From NCBI GenBank assembly GCA_019314375.1, contig JAFCZJ010000009.1:1-64000 (forward strand): DNA of 64,000 nt, written 5' to 3'. Source of the DNA: Deltaproteobacteria bacterium (GTDB lineage Bacteria; Myxococcota; B64-G9). The notes under the pieces were generated by a model. It was not told where the DNA came from and did no database searches. It was given only the letters and a program-made list of their open reading frames with translations. Below, piece after piece: positions 27,362-27,769 of this stretch. A program made the position numbers and the translations under genes. How positions within the stretch are numbered: the stretch's first letter is position 1; every line of letters starts with the position of its first letter.

Positions 27362-27538
27362 CTACTGTTTGTTCTCTGAATCCAGATCCCCAACAAGCTC
27401 TTCAGCATCACCTTCTTCAGCAGACCCACCGGGTCCGCAAGCGCCGGACATTCAAGTAGGCACCCCGAGGCGAGGCAAGATCACAGTCTGTAAAAGGATC
27501 CAGACACCGAAGAAAATCAAAAATCCAAGCCAATCCAT
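27362..27538 (-). CDS. Predicted small membrane selenoprotein (in-frame UGA = Sec29)
   Basis: Reading the TGA at 27452-27454 as selenocysteine gives a 58-residue protein. It has MDWLGFLIFFGVWILLQTVI as one membrane segment, then LPRLGVPT-U29-MSGACGPGG and an acidic soluble tail ending in TAG. Sec29 and Cys34 could form a redox pair. The ATG at 27538 has GGAAGG about ten bases upstream. Just after the UGA the RNA can fold an 8-bp hairpin with apical loop GGU, placed as expected for a bacterial SECIS. The gene is convergent with the AgmX-type gene and lies beyond the terminator of the P-domain protein gene, so it needs its own promoter. I cannot name the family; the selenocysteine machinery is not in this window. 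Confidence 0.8.
27420..27454 (-). promoter_or_regulatory. bSECIS-like hairpin following the UGA codon
   Basis: On the minus strand GCGGACCC (27438-27431) pairs with GGGTCTGC (27427-27420), eight pairs including one G-U, around the three-base loop GGT. The apical loop begins 21 bases after the UGA (27454-27452), and its first base is G. Both fit the published bacterial SECIS pattern: loop 16-37 bases from UGA, G at the start of the loop. Confidence 0.75.
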
Positions 27539-27604
27539 AAAATCAATCACCTTCCGGCCAACCCAAAAAGAAACTACAGTAAAGTAATATACAAAACAAC
27601 CCCC

Positions 27605-27705
27605 CGTCATTCCGAAGGCTTCTGTCGGGAATCCATGCTTCGTATTCGATCATTCAGATCTAAAGTCAAAAACTGGATCCCCGGCAGAAGCACCCGGGGA
27701 TGACG
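27605..27705. repeat. Imperfect inverted repeat, MITE/REP-like
   Basis: The left arm 27605-27635 (begins CGTCATTCCG, ends GGGAATCCA) and right arm 27674-27705 (begins TGGATCCCCGG, ends GGGGATGACG) are imperfect reverse complements around a 38-base centre. Elements with GTCATTCC...GGAATCCA termini are common dispersed palindromes in many proteobacteria. It lies between the selenoprotein gene and the terminator of the next gene. Confidence 0.75.
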
Positions 27706-27739
27706 CCATTAATGTTCTTAAGGTGCCAACGTCCCCCTG

Positions 27740-27769
27740 AAAAAACGGCCCCGTCCAAGAACGGGGCCG
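27740..27769 (-). terminator. Intrinsic terminator of the P-domain lipoprotein gene
   Basis: On the minus strand CGGCCCCGT (27769-27761) pairs with ACGGGGCCG (27754-27746) around a six-base loop and is followed by TTTTTTCAGG. A strong rho-independent terminator 32 bases past the stop codon at 27801. Confidence 0.9.

Follow-up and report, generated by a model that had tools for sequence, protein, structure and literature searches.

SELENOK and SELENOS of eukaryotes are small single-pass membrane proteins that carry selenocysteine (Sec) in a disordered cytosolic tail near the C-terminus. For prokaryotes, a 2026 catalogue comprises 119 selenoprotein families, among them a Sec-containing form of FmdB, and gives as criteria for the bacterial Sec insertion element (bSECIS) a loop of 3-9 nt, a stem of 4-16 bp, a G in the first two loop positions, a distance of 16-37 nt from the UGA and an energy of -7.5 or lower (PMC13188914). 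All new families found by deep-Sep have Cys homologues (PMC12013277). A sulfide-responsive operon of E. coli encodes YgaV, which is of the ArsR type, together with YgaP, a membrane rhodanese (PMC9774250). Here, a stretch of 64,000 nucleotides (the window; contig JAFCZJ010000009.1, positions 1 to 64,000) from a MAG (Myxococcota-related, 6.7 Mb, 97.6% complete) of a Deltaproteobacteria bacterium was analyzed, in which a 440-base gap very probably contains a real selenoprotein gene belonging to an apparently undescribed and widespread selenoprotein family.

The gap lies between the end of a TonB-C-domain gene on the plus strand (27360) and the end of the gene for a 693-residue P-domain protein on the minus strand (27801). 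The minus-strand reading frame with an in-frame UGA, which an earlier note had claimed to be hidden in this gap, was found as claimed, and the frame 27538-27362 translates as MDWLGFLIFFGVWILLQTVILPRLGVPT-UGA-MSGACGPGGSAEEGDAEELVGDLDSENKQ-TAG. The two 29-codon fragments mentioned in the same note are in fact 28 codons followed by the UGA and 29 codons followed by TAG. The 58-residue product consists, in this order, of a membrane helix, the segment LPRLGVPT, the predicted Sec29 (UGA), MSGAC containing Cys34, and a disordered tail. AlphaFold modeled one helix with a disordered tail, a structure that carries no active-site information. The features of the locus are listed in Table 1.

Table 1. Features of the predicted selenoprotein locus (window coordinates).
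Feature	Position	Strand	Support
Complete predicted selenoprotein ORF of 58 codons (one of them UGA), ending in TAG	27362..27538	-	TGA=U translation; kept in 9/9 class genomes
Single transmembrane helix, residues 2-24	27467..27535	-	AlphaFold, pLDDT about 90 over residues 1-20; invariant W13, Q17, L21, P22
UGA codon, predicted to be read as selenocysteine, residue 29	27452..27454	-	UGA in 80/80 contig loci and 35/35 confident phylum matches
Codon of Cys34, which probably acts as the resolving Cys	27437..27439	-	Cys after Sec in 77/80 members, +5 in 46
bSECIS hairpin with 8 bp and a GGU loop that begins after 21 spacer bases past the UGA	27420..27438	-	Fold -13.9 kcal/mol; pair counts
Shine-Dalgarno-like GGAAGGTGA, 8 bases 5' of ATG	27547..27555	-	Sequence

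Two further elements were noticed in the gap. A dispersed palindromic repeat (window 27590-27725) lies just upstream of the predicted selenoprotein gene; it has 33 matching pieces in the genome, its near-full-length copies are 85-90% identical, and it gave a sub-threshold Rfam match to 'Wolbachia sRNA 46', the Rfam search over the 440-base gap yielding nothing above gathering score. Just past the 693-residue gene, inspection by eye showed a strong GC hairpin with a run of six T behind it at 27740-27769 on the minus strand (CGGCCCCGT-TCTTGG-ACGGGGCCG-TTTTTT). This hairpin was absent from the list of a simple scan, but it looks like the terminator of the 693-residue gene, and the selenoprotein gene therefore probably has its own promoter.

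Homologues with conserved residues before as well as after the UGA were found in searches of the class, the phylum and the contigs. All nine class genomes (9/9) contained one gene copy with a single TGA at the identical site, in line with the impression of LGVPT-U proteins in relatives that the earlier note had given. In the phylum, 35 of 195 genomes gave a confident match, each with exactly one TGA, and many of the sites were read out. The contigs were scanned with the pattern W[IV][LV][LM]Qx[VF][IV]LP, which is located 5' of the Sec site so that UGA forms could not be favored; out of 92 relatives, 80 were kept, and all 80 carried UGA at the Sec site. Together with the nine class genomes, this conservation goes far beyond what chance would give. 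The Sec site is common to about 100 bacterial species from many phyla, the phylum set and the 80-locus contig set partly overlapping. According to the database labels, which for MAGs are no proof of taxonomy, at least 80 loci belong to Myxococcota, Desulfobacterota, Geobacter-like bacteria, Acidobacteriota, Nitrospirota, Planctomycetota, KSB1, Eisenbacteria and others; labeled members include Anaeromyxobacter, Desulfobacterales, Geobacter, Geomonas and Oryzomonas, with Chloroflexi and Chthonomonas as single bins. The family was found neither on plasmids (one Geobacter-type query) nor on viral contigs. The proteins are about 45-85 residues long.

Across the 80 members, W-16, Q-12, L-8, P-7 and G-4 (numbered relative to Sec) are invariant, while T-1 and an R or K at -6 are each present in 79. 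The pair Sec29/Cys34 proposed in the earlier note exists in the window but does not hold for the whole family, since Cys occupies +5 in only 46/80 members and is located elsewhere (+8 in 12) or absent in the rest; because three members have no Cys downstream of Sec at all, not every member can have a redox pair of two residues. No Cys form of the Sec site was detected among the 80 contig loci or the confident phylum matches, and neither UAA nor UAG occurred at this site in the 80 contig loci. The UGA/Cys exchange that had been anticipated among homologues was thus not encountered, every confident homologue retaining the UGA. The customary argument from Sec/Cys exchange is consequently missing, and the family is apparently Sec-only.

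Protein-level constraint on both sides of the UGA was assessed from change rates at codon positions 1, 2 and 3 in the class. The rates were 0.42, 0.16 and 0.59 in the upstream coding part and, in a similar pattern, 0.36, 0.19 and 0.41 over the first nine codons following the UGA, whereas the far tail gave 0.63, 0.51 and 0.72. The low rate at the second position after the UGA indicated that the near tail is under constraint at the protein level; the third position is also restrained there, as expected from the overlapping hairpin.

This hairpin (27438-27420, GCGGACCC-GGT-GGGTCTGC), described before as a bSECIS candidate, was confirmed, and proved to be conserved with compensatory changes. Its energy, calculated on the isolated hairpin, lies within the published bSECIS limits, as do its loop, stem and spacing. 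Loop and spacing lie within these limits in 79 of the 80 members, and the energy does so in 61. The mean hairpin energy was -11.0 kcal/mol versus -6.0 kcal/mol in synonymous recodings of the same peptides, and 75/80 members equaled or beat the median of their own recoded controls. In the class alignment, the register of the window contained 6 compensatory cells and was paired in 76% of the cells (70% in shuffles); several members have the hairpin in a shifted register (for example L068, GCTTGCCG-GTC-CGGCAAGC). In a group of 17 members from Geobacter, Acidobacteriota and KSB1, the stem had 24 compensatory cells and 91.6% pairing, a level that 0/500 shuffles attained; slid registers reached 27-58% pairing and led to the same conclusion as the shuffles, which leave relatedness in.

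The genome encodes the complete Sec machinery for which a search had been proposed: selA (535 bits), selB (316 bits), tRNA-Sec (selC, 77 bits) and selD (375 bits) were all found. The selD gene itself contains one in-frame TGA, which means that at least one further Sec codon is used in this genome. Genome-wide recoding of UGA was dismissed because TGA is the ordinary stop of 16 of the 29 long ORFs of the window. Among the 195 phylum genomes, selA was present in 152, and the family occurred in 34/152 genomes with selA versus 1/43 without it (p=0.0013). The exception, G010, is a 92% complete bin with a UGA-bearing gene (L166, contig C26:52560-52679) and neither selA nor selB above cut-off; either both are absent from the assembly or the gene copy is stranded.

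Searching Pfam and NCBIfam (June 2026, including the NCBI selenoprotein models) with 64 members gave no significant match, and likewise none for the window protein alone; weak matches, such as F0 ATP synthase subunit b and ATP8, were judged to be due to chance. No motif matching LP[RK]xG[VI]xTU is present in the catalogue of 119 families (PMC13188914), and a full-text literature search for LGVPTU gave no match. It is thus likely that the family has not been described before. Coding on both sides of the UGA, conservation of the UGA and of the hairpin, and presence of the machinery together argue for its identity, and the product is, as predicted from sequence, almost certainly a selenoprotein.

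The gene neighborhoods depend on the lineage. In Acidobacteriota and Geobacter-like bacteria, two same-strand clusters recur: RND permease - YgaP-like_TM - (P-II-like PG0541 family) - ArsR - selenoprotein - FmdB zinc ribbon - DUF302, and RND - C_GCAxxG_C_C - YgaP-like_TM - ArsR - selenoprotein, the ArsR gene often abutting or overlapping the start of the selenoprotein gene. Within 1.5 kb, neighbors were FmdB in 16 loci, RND, YgaP-like_TM and ArsR in 15 each and DUF302 in 10; rarer ones were ECF sigma and PII-like (7 each) and C_GCAxxG (5). A sulfide-quinone-reductase-like gene was seen near L118 alone, and a dioxygenase-rhodanese-type gene together with cytochrome bd near L069 alone. The ArsR, YgaP-like, RND, FmdB, DUF302 and rhodanese neighbors suggest thiol or reactive-sulfur chemistry; as the contexts vary with lineage, this sulfur reading draws on some of the members only, a subset that leaves out the window itself.

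The small stand-alone YgaP-like_TM protein that adjoins the selenoprotein in 15 loci (for example L132:4070-4252 and L109:5178-5399) carries a conserved (F/W)CP(M/L) motif and terminates in G(V/L) at its C-terminus; this end (for example KMGVPRFPKSTC) is faintly like the LGVPTU..C of the selenoprotein. The FmdB-type zinc ribbon is the commonest close neighbor across phyla (L099, L100, L110, L111, L083, L090, L098 and others), and, in view of the catalogued Sec-containing form of FmdB, the FmdB protein and the selenoprotein may work together.

The same clusters could also be read in terms of metals, with the selenol acting as a metal or metalloid ligand (e.g., for Hg, As, Cu or Cd) accessory to the adjoining RND pump and ArsR-type regulator and not as a redox relay. 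Besides the proximity of the permease and the regulator in 15 loci each, this would agree with the ArsR-family neighbor being above the cut-off of an NCBIfam metalloregulator subfamily (and below that of BigR) and with the metal binding noted for many selenoproteins (PMC13188914). However, a second fixed ligand is absent, the Cys being variable in position and missing in three members, many lineages with ribosomal or sigma-factor contexts have no adjoining pump, and the YgaP-like, DUF302, rhodanese and dioxygenase genes of the same clusters point to sulfur, so that a ligand function appears unlikely. Other lineages place the gene in a different setting. In 14 Nitrospirota loci it comes last, behind the ribosomal alpha operon, directly downstream of the L17 gene and abutting or overlapping it. 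The Desulfobacterota context is that of an ECF sigma factor; in the whole set, an ECF sigma factor gene follows in 7 loci. The window locus has none of the ArsR, YgaP-like, RND, FmdB or DUF302-type neighbors, its flanks encoding unrelated secreted and TonB-like proteins. These three settings would fit a general housekeeping role at the membrane, such as peroxide or disulfide defense of inner-membrane complexes with no link to sulfur stress; the repeated association with ArsR, YgaP-like, FmdB and DUF302 genes in Acidobacteriota, Geobacter-like and other bacteria argues against such a role, which we regard as rather improbable. That the UGA is a true stop ending a 28-residue membrane peptide, with a second peptide made from the downstream ORF by termination-reinitiation at TGAATG, is very improbable: ATG does follow the UGA directly in 41/80 members, a membrane helix of 28 residues would be stable and one member genome (G010) has neither selA nor selB, but the other 39 members have GCN, GGN, CTN, GTG or ATT instead of ATG, for which reason reinitiation was dismissed as a general reading, no member has UAA or UAG at the site, the hairpin at the SECIS position covaries, Cys is present downstream in 77/80, and the occurrence of the gene tracks selA.

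If the gene encodes a selenoprotein, SelB and Sec-tRNA would read the UGA as selenocysteine, guided by the hairpin just 3' of it, as the conserved structure and the machinery suggest. The protein would then insert into the inner membrane as a single-pass protein. In the 80 members, D+E amount to 71 and K+R to 14 N-terminal of the helix, versus 1 and 86, respectively, in the segment between helix and Sec. By the positive-inside rule, this charge bias places the Sec-bearing tail in the cytoplasm, and the Sec is accordingly predicted with good confidence on the cytoplasmic face, the N-terminus presumably lying outside and the C-terminus inside. One selenol would thereby be exposed at the cytoplasmic surface about five residues past the end of the helix. 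There it could attack an oxidized or sulfane-sulfur substrate (a disulfide, a persulfide or polysulfide, or a peroxide) and either reduce it or take up its sulfur; the tail Cys, in most members, would resolve the product as a selenenylsulfide, which thioredoxin-type thiols would then reduce. From its neighbors, a role of the protein in thiol or reactive-sulfur redox chemistry is tentatively proposed. More tentatively still, this may be an ancient Sec-only micro-selenoprotein family, spread over at least eight phyla, that forms with ArsR, YgaP-like, FmdB and DUF302 proteins an undescribed inner-membrane sulfane-sulfur/thiol-redox system needing selenium. If that holds, selenium chemistry would be indispensable there.

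Selenoprotein catalogues have largely been built from Cys homologues or longer ORFs, approaches that would miss a family of very small proteins in which Cys never replaces Sec. The present family may be among the more widespread selenoprotein families of Acidobacteriota, Nitrospirota, Myxococcota and Geobacter-like bacteria. As ordinary gene finders overlook its ORF, many genomes would gain an unannotated gene, and these lineages would have an added reason to retain the costly Sec machinery. Geomonas and Anaeromyxobacter would be simple test cases for a selenol at the membrane surface.

Compared with described proteins, the helix has weak local similarity to the N-terminus of F0 ATP synthase subunit b/b' (best E 0.02, NCBIfam), which is not significant for the size of the library; the predicted selenoprotein lacks the stalk and subunit b/b' lacks Sec. 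The neighborhood resembles E. coli YgaP and the ygaVP operon (PMC9774250, PMC4730233) in that 15 loci have a YgaP-like_TM (PF11127) neighbor and most of these also an ArsR-family gene. In contrast to YgaP, the selenoprotein has no rhodanese domain and is no YgaP homologue: no family member matched PF11127 or rhodanese, such domains being found on neighboring genes. From the catalogued bacterial selenoproteins, the family differs in that no Cys homologues were found and in having a single helix with a short tail in place of a thioredoxin fold, while it shares with them the in-frame UGA, the bSECIS with a G at the start of the loop, the spacing of 16-37 bases and the Sec machinery. To SELENOK and SELENOS it is alike in layout only, and its predicted Sec sits five residues from the membrane helix.
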